Both the position numbers and the translations under genes were made by a program. The notes under the pieces were generated by a model that worked only from the letters and a program-made list of their open reading frames with translations, ran no database searches and was not told where the DNA came from. From positions 9,738,452 to 9,802,451 of the forward strand of contig NC_045142.1 of assembly GCF_008831285.2 (NCBI RefSeq): a DNA stretch of 64,000 nt, written 5' to 3'. The DNA is from Nymphaea colorata. Its lineage: Eukaryota; Streptophyta; Magnoliopsida; Nymphaeales; Nymphaeaceae. Of this stretch, positions 755-60,110 are shown piece by piece. The number at the start of each line of letters is the position of its first letter. Positions within the stretch are counted from its first letter, which is position 1.

Positions 755-3700
755 TCAAGCAACACCATTCTCAAGTTCCTGAATTCTCCGTTCCAGCTGC
801 ACAATAAAGAAACATGTTATTCTTGCAAACTCAATAGTTGAAGATTTTGAAACACATTAGATAAGTTTTCTAAAAAGACACCATTTTCAAATGAAGAAGT
901 TTAATTTTCATATATAATTGCACCTAGGAGTTATTGGCATACAATGGAAGAACATCTTACATACAGACACTTGTGAACAATGTGAAAATTTGCATAATTC
1001 ATTTCATAAGAATGTTTGGAACTTTTGATTTATGGCAATCAGATGTTTCGTGGTCTTGTCAAGAAAGGTATGCATCAATCTCCCTCCTACTTTTAAATAA
1101 TTTGGCAAGGTTCATACATGTAGGTTTTATCCTAGGTTTCCATTGTTGGGAAGAGGGGTTTTTTGATTTGGGTGGACATTGAAGATGATCTAAAGTTTAC
1201 TCTTCGTAGGAAGGCCTAGAAGTTTTTTAGGAAAACCCTCACCACAAAAAAATGATGTCCAAGGATGGTGATGTATTTGATCTGATGAGCAAAATGCCAT
1301 TTTGGGTCAGGCTTCCTAGCCTTGAATCATTAATGTGGAACATCAGGATGTTCAATAGAGTAGACATGAAGCTCTATGGGGATTCATTGGAAGTAGATTA
1401 TCCTACCAGAAAGATTTTGAGAAATGGCATCACTTGCAAATGTTTGGATGTGCAATTGAAGACAAAACTCATAAGGGAGATTGAAATTGAGATGGTTGGA
1501 GGATCAACGCTTGTATAGTTGCTAGTATACGAGACAATACTCCATTTTGGTTGTGGAGTAAATTCCTAAAGGAGCGAGATGTTGGTTTGAGCAGACTTCA
1601 AACTTTTGAAGAAGTTAAGAAGGTTGTTTTTATGGCTGACAATGAGAGCGTGCTGGGGTTGGATGGCTTCCTAGCAGCATTTTACCAAAAGCATTGGTTG
1701 GTGAACTGAGTTCACGTTTACAAGGTGATGATAAATGTGCAACATGCAGAATTTATTAAGATGAAAAGGCGGTTTTTGTCAAGGTGATCCTCTATCACTT
1801 TATTTTTTTTTAGTTGTCAAGGAGGTTTTATTTAGAAGCTTTGTGAAGGAAGTGGACAATCTAAATATTCGAGCTTCAAAATTGCAATTGGGCACTGGTC
1901 CATCATGACTATTATTTGTTGATGTCATATTTTAATGTTGCAGCAAAAATAGGAGACTAGTTGAGGGGATGAAGCATTTTTTTATATGTTTCAACAATGT
2001 TTAGGACTTGGAGTAAATCCAGCGAAGTTCTTGATGATTCCTTTTTAGACTAATCATGATCAAGTGATTACTCTTAAGGGAATTCTTGGACGGGATGTCA
2101 AGTCCCCTCCTCTAAGGTACTTAGGGTATTCTTATATTTCAGAGGAAGCTTAAAGGGGAGTGGTGCATGGAGTTGATAGACAACATGGTTCATAAATAGG
2201 AAGGATGTGTCTTATTAAACATGTAATCACCCAAATCATATGCTTTTTGAGATGAGTTTTCATGTTCCACAATCGGTGGTGGCTAGACTGAGTAACATAA
2301 TTTTTGTGGAGTAGACAAGGTGTGAATTTGATTGGGTGTAATACTTTGTACAAGCCATTGATTGAGAGAGACATTGATTTGTCTAACATCCAAAAGCTAA
2401 ATAGAATTACATTGCAAGTCTTGCTATAAAGGTTTGCATGAAATGGAAGCGTTGGGCCCAGATGATTAATAAGAAGCATTTCAAGTTTTAGAGCTTGTGG
2501 ATTTGTGGGGCAATGGTAGATATTTTGGTTCTTAAAGGATACAAAGTGAGGGTGGAAAAGTGTTTAAAAAAAGGGCTTATTGGCAAGTCAAAGAGTGTAA
2601 GACTAAATTTTGTCAAGATAAATGGGATGTGAAATGTCTTTATCCTAAGCAATCGACAACTCGATGACCCTTAATGACAGTTTATCTTTTTCAGTAGCTG
2701 TGGTTCTCAACTTTGACGATATTCTTCTGCCCACATTCAAGGAGATGCCTGACAAAAGTGGTGTTAGTTGTCCAATGCTTCGGGTGGAAAGAGATAAGCA
2801 TGATGCAACCAAATGAAGATAATGGATATGGCTAGAAAATTGTCATCTTTGCTCTAAATGGTTCATTTATATAGCATCATCAAGCAGATTGCCTACTTTG
2901 GACAGGGTTAAAATGATGAGTTTTTCTAGTTCACCTATACTTCATTTACAAGAGAAGGGAAGGGACCGCATAACATATTTTCTTGTCCTACAATTTCGGC
3001 AAGAAAATTTTTTACCTGATTGATAGGAAATTAGGTCATAGAAGGAGACCTCACTCTTATGTGTTACAAGAGTTAAACATTTGGTTCATTGATGGTTTAA
3101 AAGGAGATGACTTAACAAAATGTTGATGGATGTCTTTCCATCTAGCAGATTGATGTTTATGGAACAATAGGAATTGGTTTATATTAGATCTCAATTAAAG
3201 GAGGATGTCAAAGAAAGTGGGATCTGTGTGTTGGAGGTGTTTAGAACTCTATTCTACTTGTATCAAATAAAATAATAAAGATTTAACTTAATTTAAGGTG
3301 TGGTCTAGGACAAGAATTGTTTATCCTAGACTCAAGTGTAGCTTGTGTCCAAATGGTTGCAATTAGACATCAGAATAAGAAGTTACCTAGCATGTCTTTA
3401 GAGAAGAGTTTGATTTATATAGTGGTAGTCTCAAACCAGCAAAGCTACTTGAGGAGTTTGAGAGGGTGCTTGGAAGAAAGAATCAAAAGGAGTGAGCACT
3501 GTCATCATCTTATCAAGGTTAGAAGCAAATTAAAAGTCTCTAGCAAATGCATAGGTGTGGAAGTGGCTATAAAATTGCTTGCTTTCTCATAATTTTCTTT
3601 GTTTTTTCCTTTTTGCTTTCTTCATTCTATACAATTCTTTGTATTCAATATATCTTCAGTTTGTTTTTGAATAAAATATTGGAGGCCTATATATTGCATG

Positions 3701-6700
3701 GAATGCATTATTTCTTGACATTATCTTCATGCAATTTTGATGGGATTTAATTCTTAAAACCCACATTTTTGTGCTTGTGTAGGAATAAAAGACCCATGGT
3801 TCTAATTTTAATGAAAACATAGTATGAGAGAAAAATGATCTAAGTAGAGCAAAATGGTTTCCAGGGATAAGATCATCACTTTATATCCTAAAAACCCATA
3901 GTTTTTGTCTAGCCAAGGGATTTGACTCCTAGGTTGCAATCATTTACACTTTACATTTTTTATCATAGTGTATTTAAATTTAGGTAGAAACGTACTAAGT
4001 TGTTTAGGATTTAGGAATAAAAGGAGTAGGAGGGGTGCTTAATAATTGCTACTTTTGGAAAAAAAATGGAGTGTTAGGGCATAAACCTAGATTGTGTTCT
4101 TCAAAAAAGGTTTCTTAATAATTGTTCCTTTTCGGCCAAACCTTGTTGAAGTTCAGAAGAAGAGGGTGCTGCTTGATTCTAGTAGGTAGACACCCCATTG
4201 GGAGAAAACTTCTCTCTCCTCATGACCCCTCTTCCTCCCATTCTTTTTCTTTGAAACCCTTAGCACCAACTTTTACAATAAAAAGTAAAAAACAATTATT
4301 TTAAAACCTTTTCCTCTAGTAGAATGGATTCAAGGTACCTTATTTCATAATATTGATGTGCTTTTGACTTAAAGCATCTCATGCCTGGTTTGGAACTTAA
4401 AAACGAGGAATGAAAACATGAGTGACCCATGGATGATATGGTAACCATTTAAGAGAATGACACAACACTAGGAATTCTTCATTCTTAAATATCAAGTTCA
4501 TAATCCAGTTGACTTGTAAAGTTCATAATCCAGTTGACGCAAATCCATATCCATTTCATATGCTAAACTTAATTCACCAGTATAACCAAAGTGCTAAACT
4601 GAACAATGGGAAACAAGTGATAATTTTTTTACATTACCTGAATCAGAGTTTGCAATTTATCTTTTAGAATGTAAAATTTTTGCTTGACAGTGTTCAATTC
4701 ACCTTTACACCTGCATCAAAATATGTAGGTTTACAATTTTATTTGAAAATACAAGAGGCACTTTGAAATAAAAAAGACAAATTTGTTTGGAAATGCTAGT
4801 CAATGCAATGATAAAACACAAAACCAATATAGGTAGAATACTAGAGACAAAATGGGATCAATTTGTTACTAAATGCAATGAAGTTTTGATATCATTCAAA
4901 AAAAAAAGATGCCAATGGGCACCTCAATTGTACACAATTTTAAGTTTAGTATTTAAATCAACATTTAATTCTTACTTGGGCCAAACCAAAAAGTGACATT
5001 TGGATCCAAATGCATTCATTATTTAATTAAGAGAAACCGTCTCAAAACTTCTAAGATTAGTTTGCCTCTTCAAGAGTTTACTTAGCTACAAAAGTATAAG
5101 GTGATTTTTGTTGTATAAAGCCATTTATTAGCCATGACTAAAGTTCCCAAGGAGCATACAAAATAAAATTGTTGTTTCAAACAAAACTTTAACAGTTTGT
5201 TTTCAAGTTAGAACATTAAGTACACGAGTCATATATAACACATTTAGCCTTGTGTAAGCACCTCTACAATCAATGGTAATTGGACTCTAAAAGAAGTGAC
5301 CACTCACCCATCTTTATTTGCTGCATCACAACAGCTACATAGCATGGTACAAGCCAACTTAACTTGATGAGCACCCATACTGCAAGAATTATGTCAATTA
5401 TGAATTGAAACAAACTCGACCATAATATTGTCACAGATTTCTACATGTGCATACACATACACCACCCATGACAAAACAAAGGCGAAGTTATGTAAATAAA
5501 CATTAAAAGTTTGTTGAAGTTATATAGACCTCCTTGTCATACATGACTACTAGACAAGATTGAGAAAATAACCAAACTACCTTGCACTGCTTCCCTTCAA
5601 TCGGTAAACAGACACATCAACTTTTCCATAATCAGGTGTCTCTTTATCCCTGCAAGGGCACATCTTAGAAGGTTTATAACTATGTAACAAACTACAATAA
5701 TTTATGCAAATGAGTTCAAAATATGATGACAGTTAGGTTGTACATACAACAATTGGCTTAGTTCTGCTAATATGTTCTCAAAATCCTCACAAAATATGTT
5801 AATCACAGATATTACAAAACCAGGATTGTTGGCATCTTGCAGCATTTGAACCTGCTTGAATTGCTCATCAAGTTGTCCCTATAAGAAGTAAGGAGAAGAA
5901 AAAAATGAATGATAGTTGACAAAAAACACTATACTTTCTTCCCTATGAAATAATAAAGATGAAAGGTAAATTCCCTGATTGTACCAATCATACATCATAA
6001 AAGATTGAGATCATGTCAAGCTAGTCAAGCGTTCAGATATTTAGATGAAGGATCTGCACTCTTTTTTGTGGTTTAAACTTCTTGTACCTTGAAATAATAA
6101 TTATTTGCCATTTTGAGAATTGTCTTTGTTAATTACAGTACTATCCTTAGTAATGAATATTCACAACCACGTAATTATACATGTGTGTCCATATAAGTTG
6201 TGTTTTTATTTGTACTCATGTTTATGCACATGAAGTAAAAAAAGAAAAAGTCATCAGGTATCTGATTATTTCTCCAATCTTCCAAAATGAAATAGATTGC
6301 TTTGTTAATATCGATCATACATGGGGAGCTAAATGTAGAACTTACAAAAGATTAGGAGAAAAGGGAAAATAATTAGTGATTGTTAGTTGCATAAGCAAGA
6401 TTTTCTTTCATTGGAATAAAATCAAAAACTTTTCTTCAACAATTTTTGCTTTATTGGTAGATTTTTGACACCACGATAGTCCTCAACACAATGACAGAGG
6501 AACTTTTTGAATGTCAAAAAAGTGGAGTGCATATTGTTCAGAAACTATCACTTTCATGGCAGATTTTTAGTATCACTTTCATTGCATCATTAAAAGAGGC
6601 CGACAAAAATTTAACCCACTTGGGAGAGAACATGCTTTCTACATGACACAACATCCACCTTTCCTTTTAGACTCATAGCAACTACATTCTAAAATGTCAA

Positions 6701-8333: not shown

Positions 8334-8390
<57 letters not shown>

Positions 8391-8615
8391 ACCTCATGGA
8401 AGAGGGAATTGATGTAGGCTTCACATTGTTGCTTGAGCAAGTTAATGTTCCCAACATCCATACAACAAAAACTAGTGTTGTTGGGGTGTTAAGAATGGTG
8501 ATTAGAAGATGAGGGAGAAAGAGGAGGCCAAGAGAAAAGAAAGCAATGAAGAATAGCATCTCTAGAGGGGAGAGAAGCACATAATTATGTACATTGAGAC
8601 TCTCCCAACTAAAGA

Positions 8616-8733: not shown

Positions 8734-8804
8734 ACCTCAAGGAGGAGGGAGTCGATGTAAGCTCCACACTGTTGCTTGAGCAAGTTAATGCTCTCAGAAG
8801 CCAT
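755..8804 (-). CDS. AHP: Pseudo histidine-containing phosphotransfer protein (HPt/AHP family), six exons, His replaced by Tyr
   Basis: The six coding exons on the minus strand are 8736-8804, 5748-5878, 5581-5649, 5308-5379, 4638-4710 and 755-796. All junctions are GT-AG and all phases join, giving 456 nt and 151 residues, the normal length for plant HPt proteins. Family landmarks in order are: N-terminal INLLKQQC near residues 6-13; LDEQFKQVQMLQD then NPGF in exon 2; VYRLKGSS at 81-88; MGAHQVKLAC in exon 4; VKQKFYILKDKLQTLIQ in exon 5; and LERRIQEL at the end. Family members shuttle phosphate from cytokinin-receptor kinases to response regulators, using the His of HQLKGSS. Here that residue is Tyr82 (TAC at 5604-5606, one transition from CAC) followed by Arg (CGA). 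Phosphotransfer should therefore be lost, as in the known inhibitor AHP6, which has Asn at this site. The inhibitory role is inference. A still-functional inhibitor and an early decaying gene remain alternatives. Confidence 0.9.
1180..3280 (+). mobile_element. Decayed non-LTR retrotransposon (LINE) in intron 5 of the HPt gene
   Basis: The reading frame at 1252-1518 resembles the DUF4283 region of plant LINE ORF1 (FWVRLPSL, then EIEIEMVGG). It is followed directly by broken reverse-transcriptase pieces: LGLDGFLAAFYQKHW near 1655, QGDPLSLYFFLV near 1780, and LKGILGRDVKSPPLRYLG near 2070. A zf-RVT-like segment with RLPTLDRVK and a degraded cysteine region follows at about 2890-3010. Many stops and frameshifts interrupt it, and the endonuclease region between ORF1 and the RT is missing. 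It runs opposite to the host gene inside its last intron. It is clearly dead; the outer limits are approximate. Confidence 0.75.
6838..7725. repeat. Pair of diverged direct repeats in intron 1 of the HPt gene
   Basis: Two segments of about 280 bases (roughly 6838-7115 and 7445-7725) share a common order of words: AATTGTTAAGG, GAATGAAGAGAAG, GATTTAAT, GGGGATAATGAT, and CCATGGTGAAAAA at the end. They are separated by about 600 bases and have diverged considerably. No coding potential or known element was recognised. Confidence 0.55.
8335..8390. repeat. (GA)n microsatellite beside alternative exon 1a
   Basis: A GA tract of about 55 bases with a few interruptions. On the gene strand it is (CT)n and begins two to three bases after the GT donor of the proximal first exon, which makes it part of the 5' end of intron 1. 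Confidence 0.9.
8393..8461 (-). CDS. AHP: Duplicated alternative first exon of the HPt gene
   Basis: This 69-nt block is a second copy of the gene's first exon, 343 bases nearer to exon 2 than the copy at 8736-8804. Both encode 23 residues with the same core (INLLKQQC, AYI, SL) and both end GAG before a GT donor, so either can join exon 2 in phase. This copy starts MDVGN and the other MASES. The similarity continues into the 5' flank, so the duplication included leader sequence. I infer alternative first exons or a redundant copy; RNA evidence would be needed to say which is used. Confidence 0.75.
8622..8648. repeat. (AT)n microsatellite in the exon-1 duplication
   Basis: An AT tract of 27 bases lies between the two duplicated first exons and has no counterpart at the same place in the other duplicate. 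Confidence 0.9.
8673..8732. repeat. (GA)n microsatellite beside exon 1b
   Basis: An uninterrupted GA tract of about 60 bases. Read on the gene strand it is a (CT)n run starting right after the GTGC of the distal first exon's donor site, as at the other duplicate. Confidence 0.9.
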
Positions 8805-12436: not shown

Positions 12437-13400
12437 TTAGTTGGTATGAATTGTTGGGCAAAGCTTCCTTAATGACATATGGGTCTTCCCAATTTGGTGC
12501 TCACTTGCCTCGTGGTCGTCATTTAAGGTACACCGCAGATCGTAGGACCAAATCATTACTTTGAACTTTCTCTCGATAACTAACTTGGCAAATTGTCTGG
12601 CTACCCTTTGGCGATAAGCTTCAGCATGTTCAGCTACTTTTAGTCTCTTTTCATCTAGCAAATCGAGCTGCATTAGCCTTTTCTGCTGATATTGAGTAAG
12701 AGGGAGCTCTATGAGAGAATGGAACTTCAAAGCAGGTTTCAATACATGTAATGGTAGAACCACTTCTGTTCCATAGACTAGCTCTGCTGGAGTGGCATTT
12801 GTTGGAGTTCTCATAGTGGTGCGATATGCCCATAGAACGTTATGCATCTTTTCATGCCAATATCTTCCACTTTCTACTGTCCATTCTAAGATGCAGATCA
12901 GGATCTTGTTGGTAGCCTCTGCTTGTCCATTGCCTTGGGGGTAATAAGGAGTTGAAACATGGTGCGTGATGTGGTACTTGCTACACAATTGCCTCATCTT
13001 TTCATTTTTGAAATGAGTTCCGTTATCAGATATTATATCATGAGGGACTCCAAATCTGCAAAGAAGATTTTTGTGAATGAAGGACACTACATGACGTCCT
13101 TCTACTGTTTTGAGTGTGACGACTTCTACCCACTTGGTAAAATAGTCTGTTTCAGCAAGAAAATACTTATGACCATTAGAAGCTGCAGGGGATATCCGTC
13201 CAACTACGTCAAAGGCCCACATTGAAAATGGCCAAGGAGGTGTCACAGAATGTAAGTGAGAGGCTGGGGCATGGATCACTAGAGCATGCAGTTGGCATTC
13301 TTTAAAACTTTTGACGTATTGGTGACAATATTTTTGCATGGTTGGTCAATAATATCCTGCTCAAATTATTTGTTTGGTGAGGGTTTGGTAACCAACATGG
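12437..13400 (-). CDS. Gypsy integrase (partial, degenerate)
   Basis: A 300-codon open stretch (12437-13339) encodes most of an integrase. The catalytic core is visible: FDVVGRISP supplies the first Asp, SDNGTHFKNE the second, and GNGQAEATNK the glutamate of the D,D-35-E triad. The zinc-binding domain upstream is interrupted by a stop at about 13350. Near the C terminus the frame shifts after RKFKV, so the normal tail is lost. The protein would insert element cDNA into chromosomes. Here it is probably inactive because both ends are damaged, although the core residues survive. It follows the RNase H remnant in the usual Ty3/gypsy order. Confidence 0.88.
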
Positions 13401-42855: not shown

Positions 42856-45800
42856 GCCCCCCTCAAGTTGTGCATGAGATTTGATCATGCACAACTTGTT
42901 TTTCAAATCCCAAAAATGCTGCCCTGTAAGACCTTTGGTAAAAAGATCCACTATCTGTTCACTGGTGGATATATAAATAGGTAAGATCTCGGCTTTTTCA
43001 ACCTTCTGACGAATGAAGTGTTGATCAATCTCAATGTGCTTGGTACGATTATGCAAAATGGAATTGAAAGCAATTTTGATGGCACTTTGATTGTCGCATA
43101 GCAATGAGGACTGAACAATAGGTAGATGAAGCTCTCCAAGCCAATGTCGTAACCATGATGCCTCAGCTGTCCCTGCAGCCATTGCTCTATACTCTGCCTC
43201 AGTGCTAGATCGTGCAACTGCACGCTGCTTTTTACTGCTCCAACAAATGAGATTAGAATCAAGAAAGAGGCAGAAACCTGAAACTGAGCGTCGGTCATTA
43301 GGATCTCTTGCCCAGTCTGCATCAGTATAAGTATATATTGCTATGTCCAAGAGAAACATTGGGACACTTTGTATAGATCAATCCATCCCCAACAGTGGCT
43401 TTGAGATACCGTAAGATCCGCTTAGCGGCATCCATATGTCCTTCTGTGGGTGCATGCATAAATTGAGAGATCTGATTTACAGCATAGACTATGTCTGGGC
43501 GGGTAAAGGTAAGGTATTGTAACATACCAACAATGCTGCGATAGAAGGTAGGATTTGAATAGGCAGCGGTTCCATCAAAGGCAGCCAATTTAGTGTTTAG
43601 AACACTAGGAGTAGTTATGAGTTTGCAATTAATCATACTTGCCCTGTCCAAAATATCAAGAGTATACTTATGCTGCATAAAAGTCAATCAATCATTTGCC
43701 CTGTCAAGTTCAACACCCAAGAAGTACCGAAGTTCGCTGAGATCTTTCATCTTGAATTCTTGCTGCAACAAATCCTTAACATAAGATATATGAGAAGAAA
43801 AATTCCCAGTTATAACAATATCATCTACATAGATAAGTAACCAAGTAGTAGCTTCTTCGGTATGATACATAAACAAGGAATGATCTAGAGAGCTTCGTAG
43901 AAAACCAGCTTGTTGTATACGATGAGAAAACCGATCGAACCATGATCTAGAAGCTTGCTTCAGCCCATATAAAGACTTGTGTAACTTACAAACCCATTTT
44001 TGAGGATCATGAGTATTGTAGCTGGGAGGTTGCTCCATGTATACCTTTTCCTTAAGAATCCCATGAAGAAAAGCATTTTTGACATCTAACTGATAAAGAG
44101 GCCACCCATATGAGACTGCAAGAGAAATAATCACACGTATTGTGCCCATCTTGATAACCGGACTGAATGTTTCATCATAATCTTCCACATATTCCTGTGT
44201 GAAACCGCGTGCCACAAGACGTGCTTTATGTCGATCAATTCTACCATCTGGCTTATATTTCAGTTTGTAGACTCATTTGGAGCCCACAACATTCTTATCA
44301 GTTGGACGAGGGACAATCTGCCAAGTCTGACACTCATGCAAGGCTGCCATTTCCTCATTCATAGCTTCAACCCAACATTTTTCCTTACTTGCATGGTGAT
44401 AAAATTTTGGTTCTACCTTCTTGTTGACTTCTATCATAAACAATTGAAAATCTAAAGAAAAGTTGTTATAACTTACCCACCGATCAATGAGATGTCGCAC
44501 ACATTGGGACTAACGTGGGGCTGCAGTAGGAGCTGATTGCCTAGAGTACACAAGGCTTGAGAACCGACTATGTATAGGTGAATCATGGGGTTGTGAGGAT
44601 GAGGGCATGTTGTCCAAGGAATCGCTCACAAGTGTCTCAGGCTCATTAACATCTTGCTCCTCGTGCTCAATCAAACGGTCAGCCCTTTGTCTTAGGATTT
44701 CAGCATGCAGCCAAGTATCATAAACCTCATTTTTATCCTTGAGTGTCATGCAAGTAGCCTTGGGATCTTGTAACATGTTTTCATCAAAAACAACATGCCG
44801 TGAAATATGAACACGCCCAGTTTTAAGGTTGTAACATCTATAACCCTTGTAGTTTTCTGCATACCCTATAAATATGCACAAAATAGCACGATTTTGAAAC
44901 TTGTTACGTTAGGAAACATCAACATGCACATAGCAAACACATCCAAAAACACGCAATTCCTCATAGCGTGGCTGCTCTTGATGTAATAAAAAATATGGGG
45001 ATTTGCCATCAAGCAAAGCCAATGGCAGTTGATTTATAACATGGACAGCCGTATGAAAAGCCTCAGTCCACAATGTCATGAGTAAGTCTGTGTCATGCAT
45101 CATGCTGAGTGTGCTTTCAACAATATGTCTATGTTTTCGTTCAGCAATTCCATTTTGTTGAGGAGTATGTGGGCATGAAATCTGTCTAGTGATCCCATTA
45201 TCTAATAGATTCTCAGTAAATTCATTAGAAATAAATTCACCACCACCATCACATTGAAAATGCACAATATTACTGGAGTATTTATTTCGAACGAAGGCAT
45301 GGAATTGAGTAAACAAACGGAAAACTTCATATTTGTGTTTCATGAAGTGTATCCAAGTATGTCGGGAATATGAATCTATAAAAATGACATAGTACCTACT
45401 CCCAAAAGAAGAGGAAATTGGAGCAGGCCCCCAAACATCAGAATATATGGTGTCAAAAATCCTTGAAGCTCTTTTATTAATTGACTGAAAAGGAAGGGCA
45501 TGGCTCTTACAAAGATGACAACTCGAGCACATGCTGGACTCACTAACTGAACTCAGACTGGACTTATCTAAGAGCCCGTCTGCAACAAGACTTCGAACAA
45601 AAGACTGACTACAATGAGCTAACCGACCATGCCAAATGGATGGCTTATTATATTCTACGACATTGACTTCATTATGACTTGAAGAACATGAATCTGGAGG
45701 GTGAGGTTTGGACAGCTTTGGAGCTTCTTCAAGGACATACATGTTTCCTTTGCGAGTGCCCTTAGCGAATGTCTTTTTAGTTTGAGCATCCTTGACATAA

Positions 45801-47155
45801 ACAGAAGATGGTGTGAATTCAACAGAGGAGTGAGTATCATCAATAAGTTTGGACACTGAGATAATATTTTTCTTGACACTTGGAACAACAAAGACATTCT
45901 TTAATGGAATGGAAGAAGAACCCATGGATATTTGTGCATTTCCAATATGCGATATTGTGTGATGGGAACCATCTCCCGTGACTACTGAGCCTTGATCTAA
46001 ATAAGGGGAAACACTAGAGAGATTACATGTGTCACCAGTAACGTGGGCTGCTGCTCCAAAGTCCACATACCACTCTCTTTGCTCATTTTGCTTCAAGTTA
46101 AGTTTGGATAAGGCTGTCATTAGAAGTTGTTGCACGTCTACTGAAACCTTTGAAGTTGGATTTGATCCAGATGAGGATGGAGCTGACCCGGCTGCTGTCC
46201 TGTTCTCGCGCCTGACCTGACTATTCTTGTTCTGAGGATTGTGCCAACATTCTGATTTTACATGCCCCTTCTTGTTGCAATAGAAGCATGTCGGGATTCT
46301 TCTAGATGTGGCAGAGGTAGTATTCATGCTTGGCGGTGTTGGGAGAATCCCTCTTCCCATGCCTACTTGAGGAGTCCAAGAACGAGTGCGATTTCCTTGC
46401 AGTGCGTGAGTTCTTGTGATCAGTACATTGTGGCTGTTGGAAGGAACCAGATTATGTCGTTGAACCCGACTAGCTTCATGTTGAAAAAGCTTGGCCTTTA
46501 GATCTTCAAAAGATGGGAGAACAGGTAAGACTTCCAAGGCTGTGCAAAAAATATCAAATTCTGTTCCCAGTCCACTCAAGGCTTGTTGGACTTTGTCCTT
46601 GTCGCTGACGGGATGTCCAATTGCAACAAGCTGATCACTAATACTCTTGATTTCATTCAAATACTCCAAAACTGTACGCGTCCCACGCTTGATATCCTGA
46701 AATTGCCTTCTTAATTGTAGAAAACGTGCTTCCGAGACTTGAGAATATGTTGTGGCAAGGGTAGACCACAACTCTAGGGCAGTTAAATCATCATCAATAC
46801 CTCTCAATACCTCCTCTGACAAGGTAGAAGTAATATAAGCAACAAGAGAATGTTCGTGAGCCAGCCAAACTTCATATTCGGGATTACTCTCAGGAAGAGT
46901 TTCATATTCAAAATTGATTTCACTTTCAGCCGAGGCCCTAGCACCTTTATCTCCCACGACTGTCTTCTTTACTTCACGGTTAACATACTTTGAAGGTGCT
47001 GGAGTAGTCTCATCGATGTGCCCATACAGTCTATGGCTCTTAATAAATGGGACAATTTGACGTTTTCAAGTCAAATAATTACTATGGTTCAGTTTTTGAG
47101 AGATGAGTTGTGAGAGAAAACTAGAAGATAGAAGAGAGGGAGCCAGCTGGTCCAT
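42850..47155 (-). pseudogene. Copia gag-pol polyprotein, five stops and one frameshift
   Basis: The frame starts with ATG at 47155 (MDQLAPSLL). A TGA at about 47070 breaks gag early. Then comes a 682-codon stretch (44909-46957) with the zinc knuckle CFYCNKKGHVKSEC, protease WYVDFGAAAHVTGD, and integrase zinc and core motifs (WHGRLAHCS, SDVWGP, QCDGGGEF, GIAERKHRH). Single stops follow at about 44906 (TAA), 44507 (TAG), 44270 (TGA) and 43685 (TGA), all in the same frame. RT shows LYGLKQASRSWF and YVDDIVITG. A frameshift near 43350 precedes RNase H (TDADWARD, SSTEAEYRAMA, DNQSAIK), which ends at 42850. The protease catalytic DSG reads DFG. The copy cannot make a working polyprotein. Confidence 0.93.
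42856..42866 (-). other. Polypurine tract of the copia element
   Basis: The minus strand reads TTGAGGGGGGC directly before the 3' LTR start TGTTAAAG, a typical copia plus-strand primer site. Confidence 0.85.
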
Positions 47156-56330: not shown

Positions 56331-58084
56331 TGTTAGCCTCGGTTTGGCTAACCACCACTACAGCCGCTCACTGCAGCACTCACACAGACAACCATAGGAA
56401 GCCCAGCTCACGTCAACAATAATCTTCATTAGGGTTTGATTACCCTCAAGAGGGTTTAAGTACATGACGTGTTGGGTTGGGTTGCACACTCTAACTAGAC
56501 ACGACCCATACAAAAGAAATTGCTAAAGCAAAAACACACTGACAGAAATTCAAAGACAGGATGTGTATTACTTCCAGCCGGTAGTAGCAACTCGTAAGCA
56601 AGAGGACCAATGCGCTTGATGATGCGAAAAGGGCCGACATAGCGTGGGGCAAGTTTATTGTACCCTCGTGGCCGATGATACCCTGCTTAGTGGGTTGGCC
56701 TGCATAAGTACACCCACTCATCAATGTTGTACTGCTGGTCCCGGTGTCTACGGTTGTATTGGAGTACCATGCGGTTGCGCGCTGCTGTGAGATGTGTCTT
56801 GAGATCTCCCAAAATGATGTCCCGGCAGTGGAGTTGAGTGTCCACTAACTCTTCTCTCGCTGTGTATGAAAATTCAGCTCATGAAAAATAATCTGCCCAA
56901 AGGCATGGGTGTTGCCCTGCAAAACAACGTAAGTTTCGAGGCACCTGTTTACTACCGCTGTTTGGCCATCGATCTATGGATGCTACGCCTGCTCAACTGC
57001 AACTTGAGGCCCTGTAATTGAAAATATTCCCTCCAGAAAGTGCTGATAAAGATGGGATCTCTGTCACTGGTTATCGACCTGGGCATTCAATGTAGGTTCC
57101 CAATACGATCTTGGAAGACCTGGGCTACCATCTTTGCTGAATATGGATGCGACGATGGCACGAAATGTGCATATTTTGATAGGCGGTCCACCACTACCAA
57201 AACAACAGACTTTTCCCGGAATGAGGGTAGGCCTTCTATGAGATCTAGTGATATGTCTTCCCATATAAGCTCAGGCGTGGGAAGGGGTTGAAGTAGTACA
57301 GCTGGCTTCATGGCCTCATATTTGTTCTGTTGACAGATTTCGCATCTCCTTACAAAATCGGTGATGGCTCTTTTCATCCCCGGCCAATAAAAAGTAGGTT
57401 GCAGCCGACGGTAAGTGCCCTCCAGTCCTTCATGACCAGCTGTCTACTCATTGTGGTAATGTTGTATAAGGATTTGTGGTAGAGTGGACTCGAGTGGAAT
57501 GAAGATGTGTCCGCTGCGATATATGTATGGTTATTTCCACTCATACCCATACACCTGAAGGGGATTTCGCTCCAACTCTTCCCTAATTTTTTTTTTACCG
57601 AGATGGCTCTTTCTTGTGCCTATTGAATCTCATCCCAAAAGTGAGCTTGGACTTGTGAAATTGAAAATAAGCTACTAACATGTTGGTCATGGGATTGGGA
57701 CAGCTCGTCCGCTGCCGCATTTTCTTCCCCCTTGCGATACCAGATTTTGAAATTAAAGCTCATCAATTTCAGCATCCACTTTTGCAGTGATGAAGATAGG
57801 GTGGGCTGTTGCAGGCAATGCTTCAGGCTGCAATGATCAGTTAAGACAATAAATTGTTGCCCCAGAAGATAGTGCTTCTATTTGAGGACGGCAAGGACTA
57901 TGGCGATTGCTTCTCTTTCGTATGCTGATTTATTCGCAAATGTCGGGCCCATTGCTCGGCTGAAATAAGCAATTGAGTGTTGCTATTGGCTCAGGACCGC
58001 TCCCACCCCTAAATCGGATGCATCTAACTCAACGGTAAAGGAAAGCTGAAAATTAGGCATCTGTAAAACTGGGGCTGTAGTCAC

Positions 58085-59235: not shown

Positions 59236-59910
59236 TTAGGGTTGTGAGAGGCACTGGTACCAAACCGTAATTTCGAACAACTTTACGGTAGTAACCCGTG
59301 AGCCCGAGGAATGCACGCAACTTTCGTAGGTTTTTAGGTGTACTCCATTCTTCACCGTATGGACTTTTTCTTGTTCCATCTTCACCTTTCCCTGACTTAT
59401 CACATGCCCTAGATAAGAGATCTTGGGAGTGCCAAAAACACATTTAGAAAGTTTGGCGTGTAGCTTATGTCGCTGCAAAGCCACTAGAAGAGTTCGTAAG
59501 TGGTTGAGGTGTTCTCGTTTCCCCTTGATGTAAATCAAAATGTCGTCAAAGAATACCAATATGAACCTTCGCAAGAAGGGGCGAAACACCTCGTTCATCA
59601 GCGACTGAAAGATGGAAGGCGCATTCATCAGTCCAAAAGGTTTGACAATGAACTCGTAGTGCCCGTCATGCATGTGGGAAGTGGTCTTAGGAATGTCGTC
59701 CTTCACCACGCCGATTTGATGATACCCAAAGTGCAGGTCTAGTTTGAAGAAAACGCAGGAATCATACAACTCATCTAGTAAGTCTTCTACAATGGGGATC
59801 GGGTACCTGTCTTTGATAATGATGGCGTTCAACGCGCGATAGTCTATGCAGAAGCGCCAGCTTCCATCCTTTTTCTTTCGAGGGTTTCTCATTGTACTCG
59901 GCTGTAGCAA
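59236..59910 (-). CDS. Reverse transcriptase domain of the gypsy fragment
   Basis: The longest open piece of this element, 224 codons. It covers RT fingers and palm from DYRALN through KLDLHFGYHQI to FFDDILIY, and continues into the thumb (HLRTLLVALQRHKLHAKLSK, YLGHVISQ). The catalytic pair is FFDD, where many gypsy elements have YADD or FFDD, so it is not damaged in itself. The frame is lost just after VKMEQEKVHTVKNG by a shift, and the preceding segment is deleted between RLYCYSR and the KKKDGSWRF start. It copied element RNA to cDNA in its active ancestor. Confidence 0.88.
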   Translation of the reverse strand: MLQPSTMRNPRKKKDGSWRFCIDYRALNAIIIKDRYPIPIVEDLLDELYDSCVFFKLDLHFGYHQIGVVKDDIPKTTSHMHDGHYEFIVKPFGLMNAPSIFQSLMNEVFRPFLRRFILVFFDDILIYIKGKREHLNHLRTLLVALQRHKLHAKLSKCVFGTPKISYLGHVISQGKVKMEQEKVHTVKNGVHLKTYESCVHSSGSRVTTVKLFEITVWYQCLSQP

Positions 59911-60110
59911 TACAGTCTAGATTTGACAAGTTCGGCTCCCAGTTGTAATTCAATGTGTTGTTCATATCCCCTTTCTGGCGGCATTGCCTTAGGCGTGCTA
60001 AAAACTGACCCAAACTCCTGTAGCATTTCCTGCACTCGTTTTCTTAAACTCTTCGGAGCTGAATCGGATGTCTTTCTCTTCTGTATGTGCCTGCACTTGA
60101 GGTATTGAAC

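Follow-up and report, generated by a model that had tools for sequence, protein, structure and literature searches.

The 64-kb window analysed here (the whole stretch of 64,000 nucleotides of Nymphaea colorata DNA, to which all positions refer) carries on its minus strand an intact gene for a histidine-containing phosphotransfer protein (HPt) with Tyr82 at the position of the phospho-acceptor His. On balance, we favour the view that its product is an independent, lineage-specific pseudo-HPt of N. colorata which is dead for phosphotransfer and probably acts as a competitor in His-Asp signalling. In the proposed scheme, a canonical HPt gene would have been duplicated inside the water lilies, and one of the copies would have lost the acceptor His (Tyr82) together with two contact residues (Q83R and R104C), and kept the predicted helical-bundle fold and nine of 13 docking positions. 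The Tyr82 protein would neither accept nor pass phosphate because the acceptor His is lost, as is described for AHP6 (PMC6518804, PMC12785465). Its probable partners are the receiver domains found in hybrid kinases and in response regulators, for which it would compete with the true HPts in the way proposed for AHP6 of Arabidopsis. Judged by sequence, the gene appears to be ordinary in kind, with a residue that is new as far as searched.

Gene structure and product

The gene comprises six exons which encode 151 residues and a stop codon. With either of two possible first exons, all exons are open, are spliced in phase and are bordered by GT-AG introns. The exon-1B splice product is identical, letter for letter, to the NCBI/nr entry "histidine-containing phosphotransfer protein 1-like" from N. 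colorata (P0001). The features are the following.

8736..8804, minus strand: exon 1B (ATG at 8804), the first exon of the NCBI protein P0001; MASESINLLKQQCGAYIDSLLLE
8393..8461, minus strand: exon 1A (ATG at 8461), alternative in-frame first exon; MDVGNINLLKQQCEAYINSLFHE
5748..5878, minus strand: exon 2, docking helix, with Q29, Q32, L36, D38 and N41 kept
5581..5649, minus strand: exon 3, the active-site exon (VYRLKGSS); encodes ...DVSVYRLKGSSA
5604..5606, minus strand: codon 82, TAC (Tyr), phospho-acceptor position
5601..5603, minus strand: codon 83, CGA (Arg)
5595..5597, minus strand: codon 85, AAG (Lys)
5308..5379, minus strand: exon 4
5337..5339, minus strand: codon 104, TGT (Cys), equivalent of the docking residue Arg101 of AHP1
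4638..4710, minus strand: exon 5
755..796, minus strand: exon 6, including the stop codon; LERRIQELENGVA followed by stop

An earlier, sequence-only reading had described the motif VYRLKGSS with TAC (5606-5604) followed by Arg, and re-reading of exon 3 on the minus strand gave the same result; the TAC codon would be one C-to-T change from CAC. The other exons, which that reading took to be open and in phase, proved to be so in the spliced product of 151 residues with its GT-AG borders. Its first exon was placed at 8461-8393, and this assignment has to be replaced, as P0001 begins at 8804-8736 instead. Between positions 8334 and 8970, exon 1 is present together with its 5' flank as two tandem copies about 343 bp apart, with 57 of 69 bases identical between exons 1A and 1B and 133 of 168 between the 5' flanks. 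Both copies of the exon are open, each with a GT donor, and the ATG at 8461 and the ATG at 8804 are therefore both possible starts. That the NCBI model passes over the nearer exon 1A may reflect transcript support.

The translated 5' flank (8923-8795) is weakly similar (46% over about 40 residues, E value 0.016) to residues 42-81 of P0002, a His-bearing paralogue from N. colorata, and the flank frame contains a stop. P0002 has an 85-residue N-terminal extension which is hydrophobic close to its end. Because of its weak likeness to the 5' flank of the Tyr gene, in which a stop is in frame, this extension may be translated 5'UTR and not a membrane anchor.

Elsewhere in the window, no second HPt gene was detected by tblastn with P0001, P0002, P0003 and P0009, the matches shown outside the gene and its 5' flank having E values of at least 0.13. 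The Rfam scan at gathering thresholds gave no match in the window, and five of the 10 reading frames scanned with Pfam were without a match. Remains of LTR retrotransposons lie on the minus strand at 12437-13345, 43688-47065, 57087-57443 and 59236-59916; they comprise gag/integrase and reverse transcriptase of the copia type, divided among different frames, plus separate integrase and reverse-transcriptase fragments.

The acceptor position among plant HPts

Two sets of homologues were aligned, a canonical set of 126 HPts, which includes the best 120 of 643 matches, and an AHP6-type set consisting of the best 120 of 270 matches from a search with AHP6 (P0127-P0246). Tyr at residue 82, a form with which the sequence-only reading was unfamiliar, occurs only in P0001 among these 246 retrieved homologues, a sample that leans to canonical and AHP6-like sequences and does not extend to rarer forms such as the Gln types of the grasses. 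Among the canonical matches listed, the acceptor position is His in 125 of 126 proteins and Tyr in one, P0001; position 83 is Gln in 124 and Arg in two (P0001 and one other), and position 104 is Arg in 114 and Cys in two (again P0001 and one other). Lys85, Gly86, Ser87 and Ser88 are invariant (126/126 of those listed). The active-site motif xHQxKGSSxS, taken from PMC7690396 and PMC6712864, corresponds to VYRLKGSSAS in P0001, with His and Gln replaced and the rest kept. In lacking the phospho-acceptor His, P0001 is like a pseudo-HPt.

The AHP6-type proteins have a different signature. Among the best 120 of 270 matches, the acceptor position is Asn in 119 and Ile in one. None of the 120 retains Lys85, which has given way to Met in 85 of them, Ile in 22, Val in 9, Thr in 3 and Leu in 1. 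The loss of Lys85 thus appears to be a second AHP6-type signature beside Asn, among the 120 proteins listed. In the portions of the literature consulted, neither a Tyr pseudo-HPt nor the N. colorata gene was found; PMC13206810 names N. colorata in two places there, both on receptors. Tyr could occur elsewhere, for instance among the 16% that remain of the 78 HPts of a legume study, in which 84% are given as His or Asn at the acceptor site (PMC6518804).

Two ways in which the protein might still have an acceptor His were rejected. The exon-1B form contains a single histidine, His94, and the exon-1A form also His22, and neither is at the acceptor site. RNA editing cannot restore His, since C-to-U editing is generally known to run the opposite way.

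Origin and relatives

A tree was built from a hand-chosen subset of 32 of the 246 proteins, the midpoint root serving for drawing only. P0001 is sister to P0002 (support 97/89), and P0003 from N. colorata and P0004 from Victoria join the pair in a group with support 100/99. The AHP6 group (100/100), including the Victoria AHP6 P0229, is placed elsewhere, and the loss of His in P0001 is therefore independent of AHP6. Orthology to AHP6 is rejected by this placement and by the kept Lys85, which is lost in 120/120 AHP6-type proteins listed. The suggestion of a pseudo-HPt in the sequence-only reading holds in so far as the gene is intact and the acceptor lost, which makes a pseudo-HPt likely; it is refined in that the gene arose as a duplicate of a His-bearing HPt within the water lilies and is no orthologue of AHP6, with Lys85 kept and the changes Q83R and R104C.

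P0002 and P0008 from Nymphaea thermarum differ at two of 126 residues compared. The P0001-P0002 pair has 53 differences, and so the HPt duplication looks much older than the split between N. colorata and N. thermarum. The annotation of P0008 is without the exon-4 segment of its relatives, which is probably a gene-model error.

Rate of change and constraint

A young pseudogene, in which the duplicate lost selection and the active site mutated by chance, with a stop or frameshift yet to come, is a rather unlikely explanation. The branch length in the tree is 0.48 for P0001 and 0.068 for P0002, and P0001 has evolved about 4-7 times faster than its sister. Unique changes number 28 against 7 with P0003 as outgroup (Tajima P 0.0004) and 26 against 5 with P0004 (P 0.0002); the counts obtained from distant outgroups are 15 against 10 (P0009) and 16 against 10 (P0007), which is not significant (P 0.32 and 0.24). 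This fast branch favours the pseudogene, and it also fits relaxed selection. In favour of the pseudogene are also the exon-1 duplicates, which are nearly as diverged as their flanks (57/69 vs 133/168; dN 0.18 and dS 0.27, from tiny counts), and the lack of a Tyr-bearing protein from N. thermarum or Victoria among the matches listed.

Against a pseudogene stands the integrity of the gene, with six open exons and intact splice sites. Comparison of P0001 with P0002 and with P0003/P0004 assigns 30 changes to the P0001 branch. Survival of the frame and splice sites was simulated under neutrality after set numbers of residue changes, with indel rates derived from the 5' flanks of exon 1. After 30 residue changes, the gene was intact in 0.021 of the simulations without indels; when two or three indels were allowed per 35 substitutions, the fraction was 0.0017 and 0.0003, respectively; for 20 to 40 changes in twelve settings, the fraction ranged from 0.08 to 0. 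Moreover, the duplication appears far older than the species split, the frame having survived since. As judged from the DNA, the intact frame together with the age of the duplication favours a kept gene, which is not proof.

The 30 changes are weakly depleted at conserved positions, when the active site is included. They fall on 5 of 45 positions conserved at 80% (expected 9.1, P 0.05), on 4 of 36 at 90% (P 0.09), on 2 of 26 at 95% (P 0.06), both of these being residues 82 and 83, and on 2 of 18 at 98% (P 0.24). If residues 82 and 83 are left out, a post hoc choice, none of the 24 positions conserved at 95% is changed among the remaining 28 changes (P 0.004).

Fold and docking face

P0001 scores 38.6 bits against Pfam Hpt (PF01627), above the cut-off of 24.6. 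The AlphaFold2 model is a helical bundle with a pLDDT of 94.9, a value that says little about stability because the underlying alignment consists mostly of canonical HPts. Foldseek returned 11 matches with E < 0.001, to HPts of rice, maize, Medicago and Arabidopsis (1yvi, 3us6, 1wn0, 9h6e, 4euk, 4pac and 4g78), with rmsd of 1.3-1.8.

The contacts of AHP1 to ARR1 and AHK5 reported in PMC11903765 include Q26, Q29, Q32, L33, D35, N38, K82, G83, S84 and S87, and apart from Q32 each of them has its identical counterpart in P0001. The 13 AHP1 contact positions were mapped onto P0001 by adding 3, with one entry of that source, 'Ser83', taken as Gly83. Nine of the 13 are identical to AHP1 (Q29, Q32, L36, D38, N41, K85, G86, S87 and S90). 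Among the changed positions, E28 and M35 are common to the His-bearing P0002, but R83 and C104 are not, so that Q83R and R104C are docking-face changes absent from the sister. With these contacts altered, docking could be weaker or directed elsewhere. Compared with the 15-position motif rule for HPts described in PMC12785465, P0001 deviates at three positions besides Tyr (Q83R, V91M and R104C) and would be classed as motif lost; AHP6 itself deviates at two by our own count, and the rule thus does not settle docking.

The changes at residues 82, 83 and 104, in the acceptor site and on the docking face, can also be read as those of a neofunctionalised HPt, in which Tyr82 and Arg83 would form a new receiver-selective docking surface or Tyr82 would be phosphorylated by another kinase. 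Lys85 is kept, unlike in AHP6-type proteins, and the protein is fast-evolving yet predicted to fold. When AHP1 is bound to ARR1, a single water molecule bridges the His and the receiver Asp (PMC11903765), and a longer Tyr could therefore fill this gap. We nevertheless consider neofunctionalisation improbable. Tyr is not known to be an acceptor in His-Asp relays.

A one-base assembly or base-calling error is very improbable: the window and P0001 presumably derive from a single assembly, so that their match is no independent confirmation, but the copy is truly diverged, as is shown by the adjacent Q83R and the rest of its 30 lineage-specific residues.

Comparison with known systems

The preferred reading, an independent pseudo-HPt, has precedents of differing weight. 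Pseudo-HPts were inferred in PMC5975490 to have at least two independent origins, and competition is given there as the most likely mode of action of AHP6. According to PMC12115143, rice PHPs bind both receptors and response regulators, a direct interaction between AHP6 and cytokinin receptors is no more than probable, and there is no binding of AHP6 by CKI1. Published data on the expression of other such genes speak against a functional pseudo-HPt, in that, of three TM-HPt transcripts annotated as non-functional, two were virtually unexpressed (PMC12785465) and atypical duplicates were mostly weakly or narrowly expressed (PMC6518804).

A more specific proposal is that the gene represents a third or later independent origin of pseudo-HPts, with a Tyr-Arg class in place of Asn or Gln which keeps the active-site Lys and places an aromatic residue in the phospho-Asp pocket of the receiver as a tighter or more selective blocker; this we regard as doubtful, and we put it forward tentatively. 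If true, such a blocker would act in an early-branching flowering plant. A further origin in water lilies, with another replacement residue, would suggest that disabling of HPt duplicates is a recurrent route to a brake on hormone signalling. The Tyr82 protein would also be a natural mutant with which one could separate what docking owes to the acceptor position, to the Gln that follows it and to the Lys.

Among the known proteins, the canonical plant HPts (AHP1-5, ZmHP2, OsHP1/2, the nearest found being P0002) resemble P0001 in fold, length, the KGSS motif and most docking residues, whereas P0001 has Tyr for His82, Arg for Gln83 and Cys for Arg104. The grass pseudo-HPts (OsPHP1-3, ZlHP3/5/6), none of which is in the alignments used here, are like P0001 in having lost His separately. 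In rice, the acceptor site of the pseudo-HPts is occupied by Gln. The same residue is found at this site in three of the eight HPts of Zizania (PMC7690396). The AHP6-type pseudo-HPts share with P0001 the lack of the phospho-acceptor His, but they form a separate group in the tree and carry Asn (119/120) with Lys85 replaced (120/120 listed), whereas P0001 has Tyr and has kept the Lys.
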